The translations under genes were made by a program, and so were the position numbers. A stretch of 64,000 nucleotides of DNA from a bacterium (GTDB lineage Bacteria; Armatimonadota; Chthonomonadetes; Chthonomonadales; Chthonomonadaceae): positions 1 to 64,000 of the forward strand of contig JAJYCW010000007.1 in the NCBI GenBank assembly GCA_021777995.1, written 5' to 3'. The notes beneath the pieces are model-generated. The model was not told the origin of the DNA, searched no databases, and saw only the letters and a list, made by a program, of their open reading frames with translations. Positions 3,001 through 64,000 of this stretch are shown here, in pieces. Position 1 is the stretch's first letter, and each line of letters starts with the position of its first letter.

Positions 3001-4841
3001 AAAGTGCAGCAGGAGTGCACAAGGCTGACATTGGCCGTGTATCGGTGGCATTTGCCGCATTCAACCTGGGAATCTCTAATATGCGTCGGCGCAAAACCAG
3101 GACCGCACTCACTTGTATTACGCTGGTGCTTCTCACATTTACGGTTCTATCATTTACGTCGGTCGTGCAGGTGATGCGATTTAACAAAGTGCCTGCACCA
3201 AGCGATTACGGTCCGCGATACAACGGTATCATGATCCGCACACCTATGTGGGATCCTCTTCAGGAGCCTGCATATAGAATTCTAAGCGATGAATATTCTC
3301 GTAATTATCATGTCGCGCCTCGCGCCTGGTTCTACGGCACCTCCCCTGGCGAACAGTCTTTCCTAACACTTCAGCGCGCGGATCGTTCGTACGACGCACG
3401 TGCACTTTGCGGATTGTCCTGGGATGAAGCGTACATAACCAAGCCGCAGGACGCTCTACTGAAAGATGATAAGGGCCAAGTGGTAGGACGGTGGTTTAGA
3501 CCCGGTGACCGTTATGATATCATTTTGCCAGATACCATTGCGCAGGCGCTTCACATCGGTTTGCGCGATGTTGGTACCGCGAAAGTCAACTACAGCGGAG
3601 TACCATACACGGTCATTGGTATCCTCGACTCGCAGAAGCTTAAGCGAATCGATGATCTCGATAACGAGATGCTTACACCCGTCGACTTTATTGCCATGAG
3701 TAAGCAGTCGCAGAGCAGTTCAGGCAACTCGGGGTCGAGCCAGGGGTTCCAGAACTATATCCACCTCGAGCCAGATATGGTCTTCTTCATACCCTATCGA
3801 ACTGCAATGGACATGGGCGCACAACTCCGTTCCATAGCGATCGACTTTAGCAATCCCACTGAAGTGCTGAAGCGGTTAGACCCACTCATGCACCGCCTCG
3901 ATCTTAATATTTACGCTGGGCAGGTCTTCAATCCTACCGCTTCAACGCCCTCCAAGATTGGTGCCGTATACCGCTACTCTTCCATTGCAGCAACATCGTC
4001 TAGCGGACTGGAACTCGTGCTGTTCCCGATCATCCTGGCGTCACTTATTGTGCTTAACACTATGTTGAATTCGGTCTATGAGCGTATTAGGGAGATACAC
4101 ATCTTCTCCTCTATCGGACTGGCGCCGTCTCACATAGGGATGCTTTTCATAGCCGAGGCGCTTGTGTACGCTATTCTAGGTTCTGTTGCCGGCTACCTGC
4201 TAGGACAGTTCCTCAGTAAGCTGCTAGTTATCACTGGCTGGGCGCCGGCTCTATACCTCAACTTCTCGAGCACCAGTGCAGTGGGAACCACGCTAATTGT
4301 CGTGACTGTCGTTCTGTTGTCCACTATCTATCCGGCTCGAAAGGCCTCCGAGGTAGCTACGCCAGCGGTTGACCGCACCTGGAAGACACCAGAACCCGAA
4401 GGTGACAACTGGAAGATACCTCTGCCATTCGCTGTGACGGGTGATCAAGCCAGCGGTCTCAACTCCTTCCTGATGGAGTGGCTCAAGGCGTACGAGGAGT
4501 ACAGTATCGGTGACTTTGTTACCCAGCAGGTGGTTACCGACGAATTTGAGAGTGAGAACGGCCATGCGTACCGAATTGGCTGTATGGCATGGTTGGCGCC
4601 GTTTGACCTTGGGGTTTCGCAGATGGTTGCGGTAGAAACGACACCCACAGACACGGCCGATGTTTATGAAATCCACCTACTTATTACCCGTGTCTCGGGT
4701 GACATTTCCAACTGGAAGCGTGTAAACCGCCGCTTCCTGAACACTCTAAGAAAGCAGTTCCTCATTTGGCGTACGCTTAAACAAGCGGATCGCGAGCGAT
4801 ATCTCTCAGGGGACGTTGAAGCGGAGGCAGTACCCGGCTAG
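1..4841 (+). CDS. Giant FtsX-family ABC permease with PA/M28-like ectodomain (5' end outside window)
   Basis: The frame is open to the left edge, so the start lies outside the window; the first in-window TTG at 75 is not the true start. About 1,612 residues are visible. The N-terminal part resembles a protease-associated (PA) domain followed by an M28 aminopeptidase-like domain. The metal ligands of M28 look lost: the usual HYDS is SYYDS near 564-578, the paired acidic residues of GADD are GADT, and the usual EE is HF in SAHFQ. Two membrane helices follow (about 815-990), then a long extracytoplasmic part, two helices near 2730-2970, and a classical FtsX/MacB core with a helix near 3080, a periplasmic insert, and three helices from about 4010 to 4330. 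The C-terminal tail is soluble. The likely role is an ABC permease working with the ATPase at 10496. The family call is firm for FtsX and moderate for the PA/M28 part. Confidence 0.8.
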   Translation, partial: TDTFNVTVPYDEGVSNVAKGAYAQLLSAPPGSPAAHLSMYPLWPNLLRTSTLPVNGLAGPVIYVGNGDLNNFNGKTVEGSIVLVNFNCGQQWLNAPRLGAKAVIFVAPDSTLRGEADSKFIGIPISIPRFYMTQSQAAPLLAACASGRPPQVRLFCNMPWRNETCRNFTAVIPGSDPKMASQVIAVESYYDSISIVPALAPGADTTCGMAAMLEMMRYFKAHPPKRTMWFVATSAHFQALQGIREYLNAHMDSWMPPGIIQSAMAKTNETRVGIWLGVFLLFFGALFVSAMRATSASGKRVTGGTITTGIALVVMLALNGGFYASSHAESLPNPPKILLWTGLDLTSQSNSFGIFYKGWFYDFREDIQGRFSDIARICRENAALVGQTFGFDSTRYFNDGVNPVNGKNWRNYIPGQPAFDSEPVTMAGGNGITFATTNDSRNLIDTPFDTANRVNIANLTTQVKLMDCLMWHIVTDSNAQSDSDMRHMPISDAPQWSRMALQGGFATVNGQVQIFNPKKSFIASSDPKLCNTLVVLRNQTKSFMGVRGNMITEAQWSTPDNMGQIALGSDGLPQHYDEATGEATGINGKQYPCLDYYSFHGVAPLTAYGSNKNIDLAAYHIDNRSMRPDPANPAVMEPDPHRGEIDYAPDRGPEGAEAIPLSIEVTTARRTSPIVVFRCVPTAIYDLVDQQSLQALTGISVYDGETDGTPRMYGYTMAPQDDANSSSYVEDMAVLFAQPGSRMKIAMTSGPGDTRLLLINSKYDPSDPFNQRGLSPNPTGIGYLVAGTSAERQNADVMGAAGSHGANSATTSGEIARSGAIYDTALHVAEDMWKLDDYRMRRLANYRILNMNSKEGVPGLHNLAAQEIALAKQARAEKNWELFDARSREAWGLESRAYPDVQQTAMDVVEGVIFYLALLMPFAYFSERLLFGFFDLKRQLSAAFLIFLAIFTCFRYIHPAFDLTTNPIIVLLAFIMLALSVLVIAMITGKFEEQIKQMGESAAGVHKADIGRVSVAFAAFNLGISNMRRRKTRTALTCITLVLLTFTVLSFTSVVQVMRFNKVPAPSDYGPRYNGIMIRTPMWDPLQEPAYRILSDEYSRNYHVAPRAWFYGTSPGEQSFLTLQRADRSYDARALCGLSWDEAYITKPQDALLKDDKGQVVGRWFRPGDRYDIILPDTIAQALHIGLRDVGTAKVNYSGVPYTVIGILDSQKLKRIDDLDNEMLTPVDFIAMSKQSQSSSGNSGSSQGFQNYIHLEPDMVFFIPYRTAMDMGAQLRSIAIDFSNPTEVLKRLDPLMHRLDLNIYAGQVFNPTASTPSKIGAVYRYSSIAATSSSGLELVLFPIILASLIVLNTMLNSVYERIREIHIFSSIGLAPSHIGMLFIAEALVYAILGSVAGYLLGQFLSKLLVITGWAPALYLNFSSTSAVGTTLIVVTVVLLSTIYPARKASEVATPAVDRTWKTPEPEGDNWKIPLPFAVTGDQASGLNSFLMEWLKAYEEYSIGDFVTQQVVTDEFESENGHAYRIGCMAWLAPFDLGVSQMVAVETTPTDTADVYEIHLLITRVSGDISNWKRVNRRFLNTLRKQFLIWRTLKQADRERYLSGDVEAEAVPG

Positions 4842-4873
4842 GCAACAGACAGACTGAATATTGGAGGACTAAC

Positions 4874-5242
4874 ATGAGTGACTTATTCGAGTTGATGGGA
4901 CCCTTGTTTGTCTTGACGATGGGACTGGTTATGTGGTTGGTTATTTCGGTACCAATCATGGCGATGGCGCGAAGAGTGGGGCATGATATGCCATGGCTTG
5001 CCTTCATTCCAATCGCGCAACTGTGGCTGCTCATAGATATAGCTGGACGTGACTGGTGGTTTCTGCTTCTGATGTTTGTGCCTGTGGTTAACCTTGGCGT
5101 GTTAGTTTGGATTGGTATGGGGTTGGCGGATACTTTCAATCAGCCGCAATGGCTAGGTATCTTGATGCTGGTGCCGCTGGTTAATCTGGCAGTGCTGTAC
5201 TATTTTGGTTTTGGCGCCAATACCAACGTTCTGCCGCAGTAG
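4874..5242 (+). CDS. Small DUF5684-like membrane protein
   Basis: This is a 122-residue protein with an ATG start behind a GGAGG Shine-Dalgarno sequence at 4863-4867. It has an N-terminal helix, then the pattern of an amphipathic WLAFIP segment, a short IAGRDWW turn, and two more helices with repeated VPLVNL/VPVVNL motifs. This architecture matches DUF5684-type proteins, small integral membrane proteins of unknown function often next to signal peptidases or exporters. It sits 32 bp after the giant permease gene and is probably co-transcribed. No catalytic motif is visible. It could be an accessory subunit of the neighbouring transporter, but that is inference from position only. Confidence 0.7.
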   Translation: MSDLFELMGPLFVLTMGLVMWLVISVPIMAMARRVGHDMPWLAFIPIAQLWLLIDIAGRDWWFLLLMFVPVVNLGVLVWIGMGLADTFNQPQWLGILMLVPLVNLAVLYYFGFGANTNVLPQ

Positions 5243-5343
5243 CTGGAGATAAGGCAAATATATCTGGTGTTGTGCAATACGTGGGCTAGGTGATTTGGTC
5301 GGAAGATTCGCAGGTGGTGAAATTCGGTGAGGAGGCAACACGC

Positions 5344-7380
5344 GTGGCGGTAGACAACGAGATAGCGCTTGCTAGGCAACAGGTGGAAGTTGAGGCCAAC
5401 GACGAGCAGGGAGAACAGCAATTTGCCGATGGCTTTAGTGGCAAAACGGTCATCGGTACGCTCTTCGTGGCACTTATCATGCTTCCTGGTGCGCTTTATC
5501 TGGGTCTAGTCGCCGGTCAGGGATTAGGCCCTGCCGCCGAGTGGGTCACTATTGTACTTTTTTCCGAGATTATGCGCAGGTCGTTTCTCCCCATGAGGCG
5601 GCAGGAGATCTACATTCTCTACTACGTAGCCGCTGCACTTACAGGTCTTGCCGCCGACAAGGGGATCAGCGGTGGTTCATTTGGGTACCTGATTTGGGCG
5701 CAGTATTTCATACAATCGCCCCAAGCAGCCATCGTTTCGCACAGCATACCTGCGTGGGTTGTTCCTCCCGCCGGGTCACCGGCTCTACTCCATCGTACAT
5801 TCTTTAGCGCCGCATGGGAAGTTCCCATTGGTCTCCTGGTCATTGGCGAACTACTGGGGCGATTTAACTGGATTAGCGCGGGCTACTTCCTCTTCAGAAT
5901 TACCTCAGACATAGAACAACTGCCGTTCCCAATGGCGCCTGTGGCTGCTTCCGGCGCTACCGCTCTCGCAGAAGCCTCCTCGAAAGAAGAGTCGTGGCGA
6001 TGGCGCGTCTTCTCCATTGGCTCTATGGTGGGTCTTATCTTCGGGTTCTTATACATTGCCATCCCGGTGTTTACTGGCGTCGTCTTCGGCCACGCTCTTC
6101 AACTCCTTCCTATTCCGTTCCTCGATACTACGGTGAACACCGAGACGTTACTGCCTGGTGCCATTACCGGTTTCAACCCTAATATTGGCAACGCACTCAT
6201 AGGCTTTGTTATTCCGTTCCCCATCGTAGCCGGGTCGATGGCCGGATCGATGCTGTTCAGGGTATTTGGGGCACCCTTTTTCTACCACCTGGGTGTATTT
6301 GGCAATGCGGCCACAGGCGGCTGGTCGCCTGGTATGAATGGCATCTACACCAAGCAGGTTACGGATATAAAATTCTGGATGTCGGTTAACATCGGCCTTC
6401 AGATTTCCGTTGCGCTCATTGGGGCGTCAAGCGTGGTGAAAGTACTGAAGGAGGCGAGGAACAACCGCTCCAATCGCGGTATGCGCAAAGAACTTCCCAA
6501 GGGACGTGGCGACGTTCCCATGTGGATACCGTTCCTCATATGGGCGACGGTTACCATTTTTTATATGCTTCTATGTGAACACCTGATAAACGGGGATTCC
6601 ACGCCTGGAAATCCACACCAGTTTCCGGCGATCTTACTCATTTTCTACGGCTTGATTTGGTCACCGTTTAACTCATACGTTTCAGCAAGAATGAACGGAT
6701 TAACCGGCAGCACTGTCTCCGTTCCATTCCTAAAACAGATTTCCATCATGGAGTCGGGCTATACGCACGTGGATGCCTGGTATGCTCCTATTCCGCTTAA
6801 CGATTTTGGGTACCTTGCTCAACGGTTTCGAGAACTAGAGCTTACTGGCACAAAGTTCGTCAGCCTTATTAAGGCGGAAACTTTGATGTTCTTTGTCGTT
6901 CTACCAGCCAGCTTTATTTTCTGGGCATTCTTCTGGCATACCAATCAAATACCCTCATCACAGTTTCCGTTTGCCAATAAGATGTGGCCGATAGCTGCAA
7001 CCTTCGAAGCTATGTTCGATCGCATAAACTCGAAAGGTGGCGGAATGCAGTGGGTACATCAATCTATTAACTATTCTCGTATAGGATGGGGTATCTTCAG
7101 CGGCCTTGGGTTATACGGTCTATTTTCGCTATTTCGGATACCAGTGCTGTTCTTTTACGGATTTATAGGCGGCATAGGGGCAAACCCACCGGATGTAATA
7201 ACCACGTTTGTGGGCGCCTATCTCAGTAAAACCTACTTTGAACGGCGCTTTGGATTGGAAAATTGGCGTAAATATACACCTGTACTGTTGGCGGGATTCT
7301 CGTGCGGTACAGGCCTCATTGCAATGGCGTCAATCGCGCTCGCGCTCATTGCAAAGTCCGTAAACTACCTGCCATTCTAA
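5344..7380 (+). CDS. OPT-like (oligopeptide transporter-type) integral membrane protein
   Basis: This is a polytopic protein of about 678 residues with roughly fourteen hydrophobic helices. The frame opens with a GTG at 5290, but GTG 5344 is the better start because a strong GGTGAGGAGG lies 8 nt upstream of it at 5326-5335. Glycine-rich helices such as GALYLGLVAGQG and the long loops near PFPMAPVAASGATALAEAS resemble the OPT/YSL superfamily, whose members import peptides or metal chelates. The similarity is in overall layout rather than in a diagnostic motif, so substrate cannot be assigned. It lies inside the ABC/PqqD operon with about 100 bp to the previous gene and 50 bp to the next. An alternative is an uncharacterised DUF6785-type transporter. 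Confidence 0.6.
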   Translation: MAVDNEIALARQQVEVEANDEQGEQQFADGFSGKTVIGTLFVALIMLPGALYLGLVAGQGLGPAAEWVTIVLFSEIMRRSFLPMRRQEIYILYYVAAALTGLAADKGISGGSFGYLIWAQYFIQSPQAAIVSHSIPAWVVPPAGSPALLHRTFFSAAWEVPIGLLVIGELLGRFNWISAGYFLFRITSDIEQLPFPMAPVAASGATALAEASSKEESWRWRVFSIGSMVGLIFGFLYIAIPVFTGVVFGHALQLLPIPFLDTTVNTETLLPGAITGFNPNIGNALIGFVIPFPIVAGSMAGSMLFRVFGAPFFYHLGVFGNAATGGWSPGMNGIYTKQVTDIKFWMSVNIGLQISVALIGASSVVKVLKEARNNRSNRGMRKELPKGRGDVPMWIPFLIWATVTIFYMLLCEHLINGDSTPGNPHQFPAILLIFYGLIWSPFNSYVSARMNGLTGSTVSVPFLKQISIMESGYTHVDAWYAPIPLNDFGYLAQRFRELELTGTKFVSLIKAETLMFFVVLPASFIFWAFFWHTNQIPSSQFPFANKMWPIAATFEAMFDRINSKGGGMQWVHQSINYSRIGWGIFSGLGLYGLFSLFRIPVLFFYGFIGGIGANPPDVITTFVGAYLSKTYFERRFGLENWRKYTPVLLAGFSCGTGLIAMASIALALIAKSVNYLPF

Positions 7381-8254: not shown

Positions 8255-9342
8255 CCGACCAGCCGCTCCTACCGCAGTCGTTGCCGCGGCCGCACAAGAA
8301 ACAAGGCCTGCCTGTAGAGTTGCCTGCACTGCCGATGACTGTGATTGGATGGCAGGGAATTCGTTGTGTGCTTCCACCGGAGTGGAACCTTACCTCCTTT
8401 TCGATGGAACGTGAAAATGGATATATACGGGCCGATGCTCCTGGCGATACCGCACTAACTGTACAGATTCGGTGGCAGGATGCGTCGGACACCGAGCGTA
8501 AGATTGGCACTCTCTACGACGTGTTTGCTCCCAAGGTGCGCAAGCTTTTCAATCGTCCTGCACCAGAGCAGAAGCCGCCAGACTTGCGAAGGTTGTTAGA
8601 CAAGGTTCTAAAGGATGCGGCTAAGTCTGCCAAAAAGGCGGGCGCGGGATTTGAGAGCAGTACGAGACCAGAAAAGCTAGAGGGAGATGATCTGGAGAGG
8701 ACGGCGATTCCGTTTTCCTGGCTAGGTGGTGGCAGAGGACAGGGAAAGATTTGGCACTGCACTAAATGTAATCGCGTTGTAGTAGCACAGGTAATTGGTA
8801 TTGCACGCGATGGGGGACAAGTGCAGTCTGTAGCAGCTGGCCTGTTTGCAACACTGAGAGATCACAGTGCTGACACCCTCGATCTTTGGGCGCTGTATGA
8901 CCTTCAGGTGAAGGTACCGGTAACGTTTCGGCTGCATCAGCAACAGGTGATGTCTGGGCATTTGCGGCTCGTGTTTCTGCGTGGTGGAGAAATGATCGTT
9001 ATTGATAGATGGGGTTTGGCTTCCATGACCTTGAAGAAGTTCAAGCTTGAAGAGTGGCTCGCGGCCAACGTAACCGTAAAACTGAAATCCATGGAACAGG
9101 CTAAAGTAATTCTGCAATCTGGACATGAAGCGAAGGTATTTAGCGGGCGTTTGAGTTTAACCGACCGCTTGAAGGTCTTTCGGAGTGCCCGGGGATTGGC
9201 CAGACCACTCGCCGTTCGGTTTGAAGGCGGTGTATGGCTGTGCGAAAACGAAAACAGAATTTACACGGTGCAGGCATTGACAAGCCGGAAGACCACCGAT
9301 TTGTGGAAACTAGTGGCGGATACGGTGATGTGCTGCCAATGA
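8251..9342 (+). CDS. Uncharacterised 363-residue protein with a CxxC knuckle
   Basis: Not recognised. The start ATG overlaps the previous stop as ATGA, which argues for translational coupling. The sequence is soluble, without signal peptide or membrane helices. It begins with a proline-rich stretch, then a beta-rich domain opening with WQGIRCVLPPEW. In the middle is an HCTKCN knuckle (around 8755-8772) followed by an alternating hydrophobic strand, like half of a zinc-binding site. A lysine-rich linker (about 8575-8650) separates the first domain from the knuckle. The close spacing to the PqqD-like gene (9 bp) suggests that the two products act together, possibly as a peptide- or protein-handling pair for the ABC exporter; this is inference. 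Confidence 0.6.
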   Translation: MTDQPLLPQSLPRPHKKQGLPVELPALPMTVIGWQGIRCVLPPEWNLTSFSMERENGYIRADAPGDTALTVQIRWQDASDTERKIGTLYDVFAPKVRKLFNRPAPEQKPPDLRRLLDKVLKDAAKSAKKAGAGFESSTRPEKLEGDDLERTAIPFSWLGGGRGQGKIWHCTKCNRVVVAQVIGIARDGGQVQSVAAGLFATLRDHSADTLDLWALYDLQVKVPVTFRLHQQQVMSGHLRLVFLRGGEMIVIDRWGLASMTLKKFKLEEWLAANVTVKLKSMEQAKVILQSGHEAKVFSGRLSLTDRLKVFRSARGLARPLAVRFEGGVWLCENENRIYTVQALTSRKTTDLWKLVADTVMCCQ

Positions 9343-9351
9343 GGTGTATGA

Positions 9352-9795
9352 ATGCCTGCAAATGAATTCGGTCGAAAGTTGAAATATGCCGCTGGCAAAT
9401 ACCTGCCATTTCTAAAAATCGCGCCGCCTGTTGCAGACCGCAAACTCGTGATGAACCTTAGGCCGCTGCATAATAGCCAGCTAACCTGGGAAAAGGGTGC
9501 AAACGGAGACGTGGTTCTTGTGGTACCTGCGAACAAGAATGTTGGCCCAGTAACTAGAGCGATTGCTAAGTGGGCGCAGGCGCCGAGTGAACGTAAGGTG
9601 GAATTGGACGAGGTGGGTACCTTTGTATGGGAGCTGTGCGACGGTACTAATACTGTGGAGTCTATCGTTCAACAGACCGGACGCCACTACCACATGAACC
9701 GCCGGGAGGCTGAGGTTTCGGTTACGCTCTTTCTAGAGATGCTGCATGATCGTCACTTTATAGCCTTCTTCAAAAAGACACGCAAGGTTGGTTAA
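9352..9795 (+). CDS. PqqD-family (RiPP recognition element-like) protein
   Basis: This is a 147-residue protein. Its second half carries the PqqD signature: LDEVGTFVWELCDGTNTVE, then a helical segment and a winged-helix end with MLHDRHFIAF. PqqD domains bind leader peptides of ribosomal peptide natural products and hand them to maturation enzymes; stand-alone copies also occur beside membrane transport genes with unknown roles. The N-terminal 70 residues are extra compared with classical PqqD of about 90 residues and carry several basic residues. The Shine-Dalgarno GAGGTG overlaps the preceding stop region, and the mini-FtsX gene follows after 15 bp. No radical-SAM enzyme or obvious precursor peptide is seen in the operon. 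Confidence 0.8.
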   Translation: MPANEFGRKLKYAAGKYLPFLKIAPPVADRKLVMNLRPLHNSQLTWEKGANGDVVLVVPANKNVGPVTRAIAKWAQAPSERKVELDEVGTFVWELCDGTNTVESIVQQTGRHYHMNRREAEVSVTLFLEMLHDRHFIAFFKKTRKVG

Positions 9796-9810
9796 AGGAG
9801 AGACCGCAGA

Positions 9811-10437
9811 ATGAGTACGCACACTGCGCCCGCATCGTTGGGTACGCCTGAAAAGCAGATCACGCTGCCATTCAGTAAGGCATGGGAGATTAGCATGAAG
9901 TCGATTAAAATCCGACTCGGCAGGTCGCTCATTACTGCCAGCGGCATCATGCTAGGCATCGCATTTTTTAGCTCAGTCCGTACTGTTGTCTTATTCCCCA
10001 TAACCCAGACGGGCGCAGCAGCCGAGGCAGCACGAAGCCGCCACAGCTTCCTTGCCATCATGGCGCTGCTAGTATGCTTTGTTGGAATTATGAACAGTAT
10101 GCTCATGTCGGTTACAGAGCGATTTCGCGAAATTGGGACCATGAAATGCCTGGGCGCCTTAGACCAGTTTATTGTCACCTTGTTCATTATTGAAGCAGGT
10201 ATTATGGGGCTTTTCGGCTCCATGATTGGGTGGTTTCTCGGCTGGCTAATTATGGTCATTCCGCACATGTTCGGCGGGGGCGCACACGATCTAAATCGAG
10301 CGTTTTTCGGTGGTTCGCTTGCGCAGGCTGCACAATCGGTGGCGATTGGCCTCGTCATCACGCTAATTGCCTGTATACCCACTGCACGCAGTGCCGCAAA
10401 GATGCCTCCTGCTGCTGCATTACGATCCGAAATCTAA
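9811..10437 (+). CDS. Minimal FtsX-type ABC permease lacking the periplasmic domain
   Basis: 208 residues. The first helix (about residues 38-60) and the next (about 77-98) are separated by only about 15 residues, whereas MacB/LolC-type permeases carry a periplasmic domain of some 200 residues there. After this come two further helices with the FtsX hallmark motif NSMLMSVTERFREIGTMKCL, the coupling segment that contacts the ATPase, and a final helix ending in AAALRSEI. The protein is therefore an FtsX core without a substrate-handling ectodomain. It precedes the ABC ATPase gene and very probably pairs with it, perhaps together with the giant permease at the start of the operon. A well-placed AAAGGAGAG supports the ATG start. 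Confidence 0.85.
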   Translation: MSTHTAPASLGTPEKQITLPFSKAWEISMKSIKIRLGRSLITASGIMLGIAFFSSVRTVVLFPITQTGAAAEAARSRHSFLAIMALLVCFVGIMNSMLMSVTERFREIGTMKCLGALDQFIVTLFIIEAGIMGLFGSMIGWFLGWLIMVIPHMFGGGAHDLNRAFFGGSLAQAAQSVAIGLVITLIACIPTARSAAKMPPAAALRSEI

Positions 10438-60348: not shown

Positions 60349-61737
60349 ATGCTGATAAAAGAATACGAAGCAGAGAATCTTAAGGAGTGCCTGCAGAAGG
60401 TGCGCGATGGGCTAGGGCCTGACGCAGTAATACTGGAAACGCGCAAGGTACGCAATGGTGGTATGCTGGGGCTGGGCTCCAGAGAGCTCGTGTGTGTGGT
60501 TGCAGCTACAGGCATCACCGTCAAGAGCGATAATATGGCCGCACCATTGCCTTCGCAGCTTTCTACTGCAGCCAAACCGGCCCCGGTTACTGCTAAACCT
60601 GCGGCAGTATCTACGCCTGCAGCCAACCACTCCGGCGCGGTAGCAAGTGCAGCACGGGCGCTTTACGGCCGCAGCGGCGGCAGTAGTGCTAACCATGTGC
60701 CCACTGGCGGTGCAGCTGTTGCCGAGCGGCAGCCGCTTGCAGCCAACCAGGAATCCCCCCGACCTGGTTATCGACAGGACCGTCCCGCAGAACAACCTCC
60801 GCCGGACCGCTTTGCCTTTTTGGAACGCGCCATGCGCGAGATACGCGACAGCCTTACCGCCCTTCAACGCGAACAGCGTGAGGTGCACGAGCGCACCGTT
60901 TCGGCAGTAGTCTCCGCGGTTCAGCCTGCAGTCCAGCCCGAAACTGGTCCATCCGGACCACTCTATCCCTGTCACGAGTTGTATGATCAACTGCTAGCGG
61001 CCGGCGTTAACGAATCTGTAGCGCGTGACCTGATGGAGAATTTACCAGACGTATCGGCATGGAGTGATCCGGCGCGACTGCCGCTCGCCGCTTCTGCTCT
61101 GCGCGACCTTATTTCCCGTCGGATTCCCGGCAGTGGACCCATTCGCCTCACTCCTAATAAGCTCAAGGCAGTTGCACTTATAGGCCCAACAGGTGTGGGT
61201 AAAACCACCACGATCGCCAAGCTGGCTGCCCACTATTCGCTGGTGGAGCACAAGAAGGTGGCGCTGCTCACCGTTGACACCTATCGTATTGCAGCTGTGG
61301 AGCAGCTTAAGACCTACAGCCAGATCCTGGACATTCCAGTTGCAGTTGCATACAGCCAAAGCGAGGTAATGCCAGCTGTAGAACAATTTGCTGATTATGA
61401 CCTTATCCTTATCGATACCGCAGGCCGGAGCCAGAAGAACATTATGCAGGTTGGCGAACTGAAAAACCTGCTTGAGACGCTGCAGTGTGAAACGCTGCTC
61501 GTACTCTCGGCTTCAACCAAGGAGCATGATATGCTCGAAGCGGTTAAGCGCTTCAGTGCTGCCCGTGTCGACCGCCTCATATTTAGCAAACTAGATGAGA
61601 CATCAACGCACGGAAGCCTGCTCAATGTAGCGGATCGCGCTGGAATTCCTTTAGCCTATATTACGACGGGCCAGAAGGTTCCTGAGGACATAGAAGTCGC
61701 GACTGGGGATAGGCTGGCAGCAATGATCCTGCCGTAA
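60349..61737 (+). CDS. flhF: Flagellar biosynthesis GTPase FlhF
   Basis: 462 residues. The N-terminal signature IKEYEAENLKECLQKVRDGLG is followed by GPDAVILETRKV, a long Ala/Pro-rich linker (about 60-150), then an NG GTPase core of the SRP family: GPTGVGKTT at 279-287, DTYRIAAVEQLKTYSQIL, DTAGRSQKN and SKLDET. FlhF recruits the flagellar basal body to the pole and cooperates with FlhG. No flhA or flhG is in the window. The ribosome binding site GGAGG can pair with CCTCT just before the ATG, so translation may be modulated. Confidence 0.93.
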   Translation: MLIKEYEAENLKECLQKVRDGLGPDAVILETRKVRNGGMLGLGSRELVCVVAATGITVKSDNMAAPLPSQLSTAAKPAPVTAKPAAVSTPAANHSGAVASAARALYGRSGGSSANHVPTGGAAVAERQPLAANQESPRPGYRQDRPAEQPPPDRFAFLERAMREIRDSLTALQREQREVHERTVSAVVSAVQPAVQPETGPSGPLYPCHELYDQLLAAGVNESVARDLMENLPDVSAWSDPARLPLAASALRDLISRRIPGSGPIRLTPNKLKAVALIGPTGVGKTTTIAKLAAHYSLVEHKKVALLTVDTYRIAAVEQLKTYSQILDIPVAVAYSQSEVMPAVEQFADYDLILIDTAGRSQKNIMQVGELKNLLETLQCETLLVLSASTKEHDMLEAVKRFSAARVDRLIFSKLDETSTHGSLLNVADRAGIPLAYITTGQKVPEDIEVATGDRLAAMILP

Positions 61738-61801: not shown

Positions 61802-62537
61802 GTTACAATGACAGCAGGTTTTAGTCCGCGTTGAAAGGTACCATTTTGATGAAGCCGAGTATACGCGGGCGGCAGTTTACAATAAACAAGATTGATTGAA
61901 AGTAGCGGAAAAACCCGTTTGATTGCGTTTACAGCTCTGACGCAAGCAGGTTGAATTATCCGCGATGCCGCACGTTCCTTACGCCTAGACGCTTTGCCTG
62001 CGTGGGCGGTTGAAACCAACTGAGTGGCTTCAGTATCCATCTACCCTCAACCTACGAAGTGCCTTCCCATGCCCGTTCTATTGTGGTGCGGTTACTCGTT
62101 GGATGCCCAGTTAACAGCTGGGTGTGGGTACCTATTCTCCGTCAAAGTGTTGACGGCTACGGCTAACAACACCCCACAAAAATGGCATCGTCCTCCTCAA
62201 GGCATTAAATTCGCGCACCGCCGTAAACTGCCACGTTTCAATATAATTTTGTACACTGCCACCAGCGCCAGTATGGTAAGCCGCTGAGAAATTTCAAATG
62301 GCTAGCTCCTAACCGAGCTGCCCTTGGTGGTGTTACCGAAGAGCAGGTTAACTGGTAACGGGCTCAGGGGTGAGGTTACGTTAGCGGAACTCTACACCAG
62401 CACAAATACCGTCCCACGTTGCTTTATCTGCTCCCAACTGGGTGGCGCGGTGAATTGCAACTGCGTTGAAACGATTAACCTTCCACTGACGCCTAATATA
62501 GTGATGAATCCCGCGAACGGATTTCCCTAAATTGCCG
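61802..62537. other. Apparently decayed, non-coding stretch
   Basis: About 736 bp between flhF and the RHS relic. No frame of useful length with a recognisable motif is present; open frames are short and change often. Because a recognisable YD-type repeat starts directly after it, this could be the eroded 5' part of the same RHS gene. Confidence 0.4.
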
Positions 62538-63181
62538 TTCTACGCCGACGGAACAGAACGAACCCGTGCAGATGGGCCAATAAACTGATGACCCCTACAC
62601 CCGCCCCATGACGTCTATCGTTCAGCCCGGCGGTTCGGTGGTAAACTACGCGTACAACGGTGATGACCAGCGCGTGGGAAAGGGCAGCGGTGGCGCGCTA
62701 ACCGGTGAGCTGTACGTGGGGGCATCGGCAGGCAGTCCGCTGCTGCAGAACGCTCACGCGTAGCGGCAGCACCGCGACCCCTGTTCAGTTTGCGGGCACC
62801 AGCGGCTACCAGGCGCAGGCAGGCAGCAACTGGTACGCCTACTGCGACAACAACCCACTTGTGCGCCTTGACCCCACGGGGCTTCGACCGTGGTGGCATG
62901 ATGTGGTTGCCATCGGCGGGTTTGTTTCGGGTTATACGATTGGCAAATCGATCATCAAGCAGTACTACAAGTGGCGTGTGGTGCAGATTGACCTTGACGG
63001 ACGCATGGCGACGAACCGAATGTGCCGCCGATATTTCAAGAATCATCCGCACGGCTACACCAAGCTTTGGCAACTTTGGAATAAGCAAACGCGGCAAAAT
63101 CTAAAAGATATTTGCCATGCCACTGGAGAGACCGGGCGGTTCCTGTATGGCAATGCTACGTTTGGTGGAACTGGCTATTAG
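62538..63181 (+). pseudogene. RHS-repeat protein relic with variable toxin-like C-terminus
   Basis: Three frames together carry RHS/YD-repeat text. The first has FYADGTERTRADGP (62538-62579). The second has DPYTRPMTSIVQPGGSVV and NYAYNGDDQRVGKG, ending at TAG 62761. The third has TPVQFAGTSGYQAQ, then SNWYAYCDNNPLVRLDPTGL (the RHS-core end), then a 99-residue tail starting RPWWHDVVAIGG to TAG 63181. Two indels are required, and the GxRYYDPxxGRFxSxDP block normally before NWYAY is missing (GYQ joins AQAGSNWYAY). The tail begins with a hydrophobic helix and ends in a basic, unrecognised domain (DGRMATNRMCRRYFKNHPHG). It is likely a polymorphic toxin tail. Confidence 0.78.
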
Positions 63182-63193
63182 CTAGCGTCAAGT

Positions 63194-63223
63194 GCCCCAC
63201 GTGAATTCGCGTTCACGTGGGGC
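63194..63223. promoter_or_regulatory. Perfect 12-bp hairpin before the immunity candidate
   Basis: GCCCCACGTGAA (63194-63205), loop TTCGCG, TTCACGTGGGGC (63212-63223). It directly abuts GGAGG (63224-63228) of the next gene and has no T-run. It may protect the mRNA end, regulate translation, or terminate poorly. Confidence 0.7.
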
Positions 63224-63238
63224 GGAGGTTTCTAGACG

Positions 63239-64000
63239 ATGAACTTCACAGTTAGGTGGTCATTGACCTTGCTAGTGTGCCTGGTTGTGGTCTCTGGTGC
63301 AGTTATCCTGACAATCAGGGTAAGGAGGTTGGTTAGTCGCGTCAACGCAGTGAACCGGTGGTTTGATTCAATGGCGGAGCCGTTTCCTTATGATTACCGG
63401 TTCGAGAAAAATGATGATTGTGCGAAGCTATATGATCGTGCGACCCATAGTAAGGAGCACACGGCAAATCAGGCGACCGTTCTTCTGTATAGTGTTAGCC
63501 ATAGCCTAGCCGCGCCAGGGAATATCCGGGTCCCGGGCTGCCGCATAGTGTATCTGGCACTTCAACCCGAACTGTGGGTGTACCGCCGTGCGAGCCTTGA
63601 TCGTGATCTTTGCCGATTGGCTGTGGAACCCGACTCTTCTGCCCACCTTTGGAAACAAACCCTAACGGTGACCTTGCAGAAAGTGAGCCACGACCAATCC
63701 ATTGTCTGTGAGATCGATCCTAGTCCGATACTTACTGCTCGCTACAGTCAACACTGGTGGGTGGGCGCGTCATTTCCGCCGTCTCCCACCGGGCCAATCA
63801 ACAAGGATCAGACCTCAGGCATTTGGCTAGTGTGGAAGGACCACGGCAACTACGATACCTTCTGCACTCTTGTGCGCACCTTGGGCATACGGGCGTCTGG
63901 TTACTATTTCAACCAGGGAACTGCCAACACCTATGTGGGTGCAATTGCGTGGCCCTCCAGCGCTAGTTGGCAGAAATATGTCGTATCGTTAGCTAGACAG
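63239..64000 (+). CDS. Membrane-anchored immunity-candidate protein (3' end outside window)
   Basis: The frame runs from ATG 63239 without a stop through 254 codons to the window end; GGAGG lies 10 nt upstream. The product starts with a signal anchor (residues about 6-26: RWSLTLLVCLVVVSGAVILT), then a soluble extracytoplasmic part with many aromatic residues (HLWKQTLTVTLQKVSH, SQHWWVGASFPPSPTGPIN, TSGIWLVWKDHGNYD). No known domain was recognised. Its position right after an RHS toxin-like tail is the classical place of a cognate immunity gene, but that role is inference. Unlike the upstream RHS gene, this frame is intact as far as visible. Confidence 0.6.
   Translation, partial: MNFTVRWSLTLLVCLVVVSGAVILTIRVRRLVSRVNAVNRWFDSMAEPFPYDYRFEKNDDCAKLYDRATHSKEHTANQATVLLYSVSHSLAAPGNIRVPGCRIVYLALQPELWVYRRASLDRDLCRLAVEPDSSAHLWKQTLTVTLQKVSHDQSIVCEIDPSPILTARYSQHWWVGASFPPSPTGPINKDQTSGIWLVWKDHGNYDTFCTLVRTLGIRASGYYFNQGTANTYVGAIAWPSSASWQKYVVSLARQ

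Follow-up and report, generated by a model that had tools for sequence, protein, structure and literature searches.

Close to the end of the bacterial contig studied here, a broken Rhs core runs into an open reading frame of no recognised family. Is this locus the ruin of a single Rhs gene, or a separate unit that may still be of use to the cell? The original prediction described a dead Rhs carrier with an unfamiliar toxin-like tail, preserved as an orphan. In the following, the whole stretch of 64,000 nucleotides will be referred to as the window. Its sequence, compared with the rest of the genome and with 291 genomes of the phylum, makes it rather likely that the locus is a displaced Rhs tip, comprising a core fragment, a candidate toxin tail and a partner gene.

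The Rhs core fragment and its surroundings

The features at the end of the window are as follows.

60349-61737: intact gene of an SRP54-type GTPase, on the basis of Pfam SRP54
62324-62530, plus strand: decayed remnant of the end gene of a preceding cassette, from its likeness to a 352-aa protein on contig C59
62581-62752, plus strand: Rhs core fragment, block one (MTSIVQPGGSVVNYAYNGDDQRVGKGSGG...), with a stop right after a 149-bp deletion
62749-62884, plus strand: end of the Rhs core, as far as NWYAYCDNNPLVRLDPTGL, from which 81 bp are missing in frame near 62801-62815
62885-63181, plus strand: variable tail (RPWWHD...GGTGY), candidate toxin domain, 98 codons plus stop
63194-63223, plus strand: perfect hairpin (12-bp stem, loop of 6) in the interval between tail stop and partner gene
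63239-64000, continuing to C162:64150, plus strand: partner and likely immunity gene, encoding 303 aa that include a membrane helix at the N-terminus and the motif YSQHW

The GTPase gene, which we take to encode FlhF, is followed by 840 bases in which no clear gene was detected. Regarding the setting, the locus may belong to an array. The upstream remnant of another cassette matches the end of the C59 protein with 35% identity over 57 aa (E 6e-9; tblastn 1.4e-9), and downstream the contig, C162, stops at 64195, 45 bp beyond the partner gene. On C59, two long genes lie between Rhs tips (L014:1408-2466, 352 aa, and L014:3076-4374, 432 aa).

Positions 62581-62884 are 90-97% identical to several Rhs core ends of the same genome. 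Compared to the paralogue at C59:4372-4904, the fragment aligns in three blocks (62581-62752 at 93.6%, 62749-62815 at 97.0% and 62801-62883 at 94.0% identity) and lacks two segments. The first deletion, with bases shared at its junction, removes 149 bp, which is not a multiple of three, and therefore the frame is broken. The second removes 81 bp in frame and takes out the YYDASIGR..SSDP stretch. Thus, the two indels and the loss of the RHS hallmark block that had been read from the window alone are confirmed by the paralogue. The Rhs_assc_core family is detected at 62813-62884 only below its cut-off.

The broken core agrees with the claim of a dead carrier, but the locus is probably not the ruin of a whole one. 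Instead, it appears to be a displaced tip in a MAG with 20 Rhs_assc_core matches on several contigs (E up to 0.1). At the end of contig C191, an Rhs frame, open over at least 1258 aa (L018:3-3776, minus strand) and cut by the contig end, is apparently a live carrier. The window core is 91.5% identical to it over 142 bp, and its tail differs from the window tail; judged by eye, we take the C191 tail to be HINT-like. Other Rhs copies of the genome are short tips with unrelated tails. In a relative, G200, an Rhs array is found together with a carrier. There, the tips lie downstream of a carrier frame of 1085 aa (L055:1605-4862), which has an odd end overlapped by a transposase-like gene (4586-5707).

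Dissociation of rhs tips from their carrier by C-terminal displacement has been described (Jackson 2009, PMC2935791). The tips described there share several features with the present locus: near-identical core fragments, unrelated tips, copies broken by frameshifts or stops and, possibly, arrays. They differ in that the account concerns Enterobacteriaceae, whereas here another phylum is involved, with tail and partner families that are not in the libraries searched. By this process, the tip would have been left in the Rhs array once other tails had replaced it on the live carrier.

The tail and its relatives

After DPTG the tail runs without a stop for 99 codons, the L and 98 more, and ends with TAG at 63179-63181. 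A single open frame this long, 98 codons, has a chance of about 0.007, which by itself is weak evidence; it is the homologues that make the window tail real. To find these, a tail profile was enlarged in three steps over the 291 phylum genomes, and at E<=0.001 it reached 14 matches, spread over 12 genomes. A random open frame is thereby ruled out. Nine of the 14 matches are rows of the final profile itself, and those on C2 and in G026, G020, G072 and G009 lie outside it; the G026 locus is a near copy of the one in G022.

Read locus by locus, an Rhs core end precedes the tail in all 14 cases. Core or tail is broken in the window, on C2, in both G047 copies, in G198 and in G200. In the case of C2, which carries a second tail copy of the same genome (46% identity), the tail contains two stops. 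Intact Rhs-linked tails of this kind do occur in related genomes, where the original prediction had proposed to look for them. G005, of the same family as the source organism, has an intact tail after an intact core end, and in G072 the tail terminates an open Rhs frame of 824 residues.

As a cross-test, 1790 ORFs from the loci under study were searched with profiles that each came from a separate group, and the results support the family. A profile of group f1 alone recovered the tails of f6 (1e-8 to 2e-7), and one of the non-f1 tails recovered those of G005 (5e-6), C2 (0.0017) and the window (0.004). The direct link from f1 to f29 and f3 is weak (0.03 to 0.4), and the connection runs via f6.

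Several traits recur among the 13 tails compared. A loose helix motif, M-x(2-7)-[WY], was found by pattern in 12 of them and is absent in G009. A hydrophobic stretch is near-general, with variable strength, and a GxxxGxxxG zipper occurs in six. The window tail has both the helix motif and the zipper (G12-G16-G20), and its best 19-residue segment has a hydropathy of 1.19, under the threshold of 1.6. From the alignments, no catalytic motif was recognisable in the tail.

Searches of Pfam, NCBIfam, PHROGs, PADLOC and the PDB gave no convincing match for the tail or its partner, and for the tail nothing above noise. Assignment to a known toxin family was therefore rejected, in agreement with the initial impression of an unfamiliar domain. 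AlphaFold models were of low quality (pLDDT 51.6 and 36.5) and provide no fold evidence. No relatives of the tail were found among viral contigs and plasmids, and a scan of genome contigs for relatives beyond the phylum returned the G005 record and one aldolase.

An origin as a fragment of a class II fructose-bisphosphate aldolase was considered and rejected. The likeness is local, limited to IDxDGR and to few loci: L050 (Caldatribacterium; 9176-10177), L031 (766-1716) and L036. Judged by eye, we take L050 and L031 to be aldolases, with IDxDGR near the C-terminus. As this motif is absent from the other tails, the resemblance was treated as chance. A match at L022, where the Rhs core was not seen, was likewise taken as chance, and L032-L035, L037, L038, L011 and L012 gave weak matches.

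The partner gene and the interval before it

The idea of a preserved orphan was correct in that the tail is kept, but it overlooked an intact gene that starts 57 bases past the tail end. The chance of its 303 open codons is about 1e-6. The frame is also open in the C2 partner (327 codons; 23% identity to the window partner over 254 columns, E 8e-17) and in the G005 partner (303 codons; 22% over 231 columns, E 3e-12). Such frames are hard to reconcile with a dead relic, made up of a decaying tail and a decaying partner that no longer have a function. The broken core in a window without an in-frame carrier, the two stops in the C2 tail and the older remnant directly upstream would agree with decay, but G033 keeps the partner gene behind a truncated Rhs core that has neither core end nor tail. 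Altogether, we regard a dead relic as improbable. A partner gene after an Rhs core without end or tail (L083:1393-2364 and 2162-2563) is a candidate for orphan immunity.

With the final profile, the partner family has 12 matches at 10 loci in nine of the 291 genomes, and all ten listed partners of the family contain [YL]S[NDQ]xW. A second set of partners was defined from f3 (G022, G026), f29 (G183, G194) and f6 (G047), which hhalign connects at 1.2e-5 (f3 to f29) and 9.6e-5 (to G047). Before the G047 partner was included, the f1 partners (window, C2 and G005) and this second set were unlinked (0.011 and 0.11). Adding the G047 partner brought the f1 and non-f1 profiles together, with E-values of 2.8e-5 and 3.8e-6; the lowest control values were 0.054 and 0.081 with 120 decoy proteins, 0.25 and 0.31 with reversed sequences and 0.082 with 100 column shuffles. 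Direct hmmsearch between f1 and non-f1 partners gave no link (E 1.7 to 7), and the relationship is thus a profile-profile one only. Of three partners scanned, that of G005 alone matched PDC-M31B (0.0021).

Tail and partner are adjacent across the phylum. A window-type partner directly follows nine of the 14 tails, the tenth locus of the partner family being that of G033; at the other five tails a different protein is found, in each case also membrane-anchored. In G020, which is outside both training sets, tail (3.8e-5) and partner (3.3e-19) are adjoining matches. Window-type partners occur in tandem in G022 (52% identical) and G026. An ankyrin protein with a membrane anchor comes after three f6 tails, namely those of G198 and G200 and one of the G047 pair; it was called by Pfam in G200 and by resemblance in G047 and G198. 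The G072 tail is followed by a membrane-anchored TPR protein, and the G009 tail by a small membrane-anchored protein in two tandem copies, 60% identical, for which Pfam gave no match.

A hydrophobic segment starting within the first 15 residues is present in all 16 partner proteins measured. As a baseline, nine of the 37 window ORFs of at least 200 aa have such a segment starting in the first 30 residues. In the window partner, a charge of +5 directly after the membrane helix would place its domain in the cytoplasm; the charges around the helix are discordant among family members.

This constant anchoring, together with the lack of a recognisable catalytic motif in the tail, could also suit a structural role, in which a surface Rhs protein would end in the tail as its anchor and have the partner as its membrane mount. 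Set against it is the combination of one tail family with several unrelated partner types and tandem copies, which is how immunity genes behave. Moreover, the Rhs tip and immunity pairs reported as tested in other bacteria were toxin and antidote (PMC3150448), and we consider a structural end quite improbable.

The interval between tail and partner contains a further element. Only two perfect hairpins (stem of at least 10, loop 3-10) exist in the whole 64-kb window, and 63194-63223 is one of them. A perfect hairpin lies in the tail-partner gap at six of the 14 loci (window, G005, G022, G026, G020 and G072), with the following positions recorded in relatives.

L021:1834-1866: gap hairpin, unrelated sequence
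L051:821-852: gap hairpin, unrelated sequence
L072:1420-1450: gap hairpin, unrelated sequence
L071:1458-1494: gap hairpin, unrelated sequence

The sequences are mutually unrelated, save that G026 equals G022. The G072 hairpin shares bases with the GTG listed as gene start; there is room for it only when the gene begins at a later ATG. The C2 gap has a bulged hairpin, and nothing notable stands out at the second G047 locus; in the remaining gaps, which are short, no hairpin was found. In the window, a terminator scan detected no intrinsic terminator after the tail. This empty scan and the lack of a long T-run indicate that the hairpin is not a plain terminator.

A candidate toxin and immunity pair

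It is chiefly the intact downstream partner gene that leads us to read the locus as a toxin and immunity cassette. Partners that change and yet are always membrane-anchored, tandem copies, and a partner outliving its tail form the pattern of such pairs. From these sequence patterns we infer a toxic role for the tail: it would be the harmful end of an Rhs weapon that works by contact, with the partner as a putative immunity protein anchored in the cytoplasmic membrane.

Orphan toxin and immunity modules are on record for CDI and Rhs loci (Poole 2011, PMC3150448). The orphan CdiA-CT/CdiI and Rhs-CT/RhsI pairs described there resemble the present locus in having a headless toxin end and an intact downstream immunity gene. 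In contrast to them, the window pair is known from its sequence, with homology compared via family libraries. The conserved downstream partner expected of an Rhs-CT/RhsI pair is present here, as one family at nine of the 14 loci and as other anchored proteins at five. Ankyrin immunity proteins, too, have been recorded for polymorphic toxins (PMC3482391).

Regarding the target, the tail may act at or through the cytoplasmic membrane. Given a toxin and immunity pair, we put this at somewhat below an even chance. The partner anchors, the zipper and the precedent of Tse5 and Tsi5 fit with it. In the accounts cited, Tse5-CT/Tsi5 comprises an Rhs C-terminal toxin active on membranes and a membrane-bound immunity protein (PMC9637101, PMC12744356); the resemblance is one of plan only, and the window tail has no convincing Pfam or PDB match. 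EsxX/TspA, as presented in PMC12744356, likewise shows a hydrophobic GxxxGxxxG, membrane immunity and distinct immunity families per toxin, but belongs to another secretion system, and here the zipper is restricted to six of 13 tails. This restriction, the hydropathy of 1.19 and the discordant helix charges keep the membrane a candidate target.

A variant would have the glycine-rich helix only carry the toxin over the target membrane, with the C-terminal helical part acting inside the cell. Several tails lack the zipper while 12 of 13 have the M...[WY] helix motif, and the zipper of Tde1 is reported as necessary for translocation (PMC10240207), all of which would agree with a carrier helix. 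The membrane-anchored partners suggest, on the contrary, neutralisation at the membrane, and we give this variant a minor share of the probability. Similarly tentative is the broadest proposal, namely a phylum-wide family of membrane-striking Rhs toxins with unrelated, interchangeable anchored immunity proteins (YSNxW, ankyrin, TPR), in which a hairpin conserved in position might permit immunity without toxin.

In the case of the window itself, the tail is severed from its carrier and probably undelivered, and the partner could still be made. The useful remainder of the displaced tip would then be immunity, together with a reserve tail for recombination. Altogether, an apparent pseudogene becomes a testable toxin and immunity pair from a poorly studied phylum, with two protein families that had no counterpart in the libraries searched, and with a hairpin that recurs in position and not in sequence. 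The loci suggest that one tail family may pair with unrelated partners whose sole common trait is a membrane anchor, and that a partner can outlast its toxin, which would suit cells that accumulate immunity.
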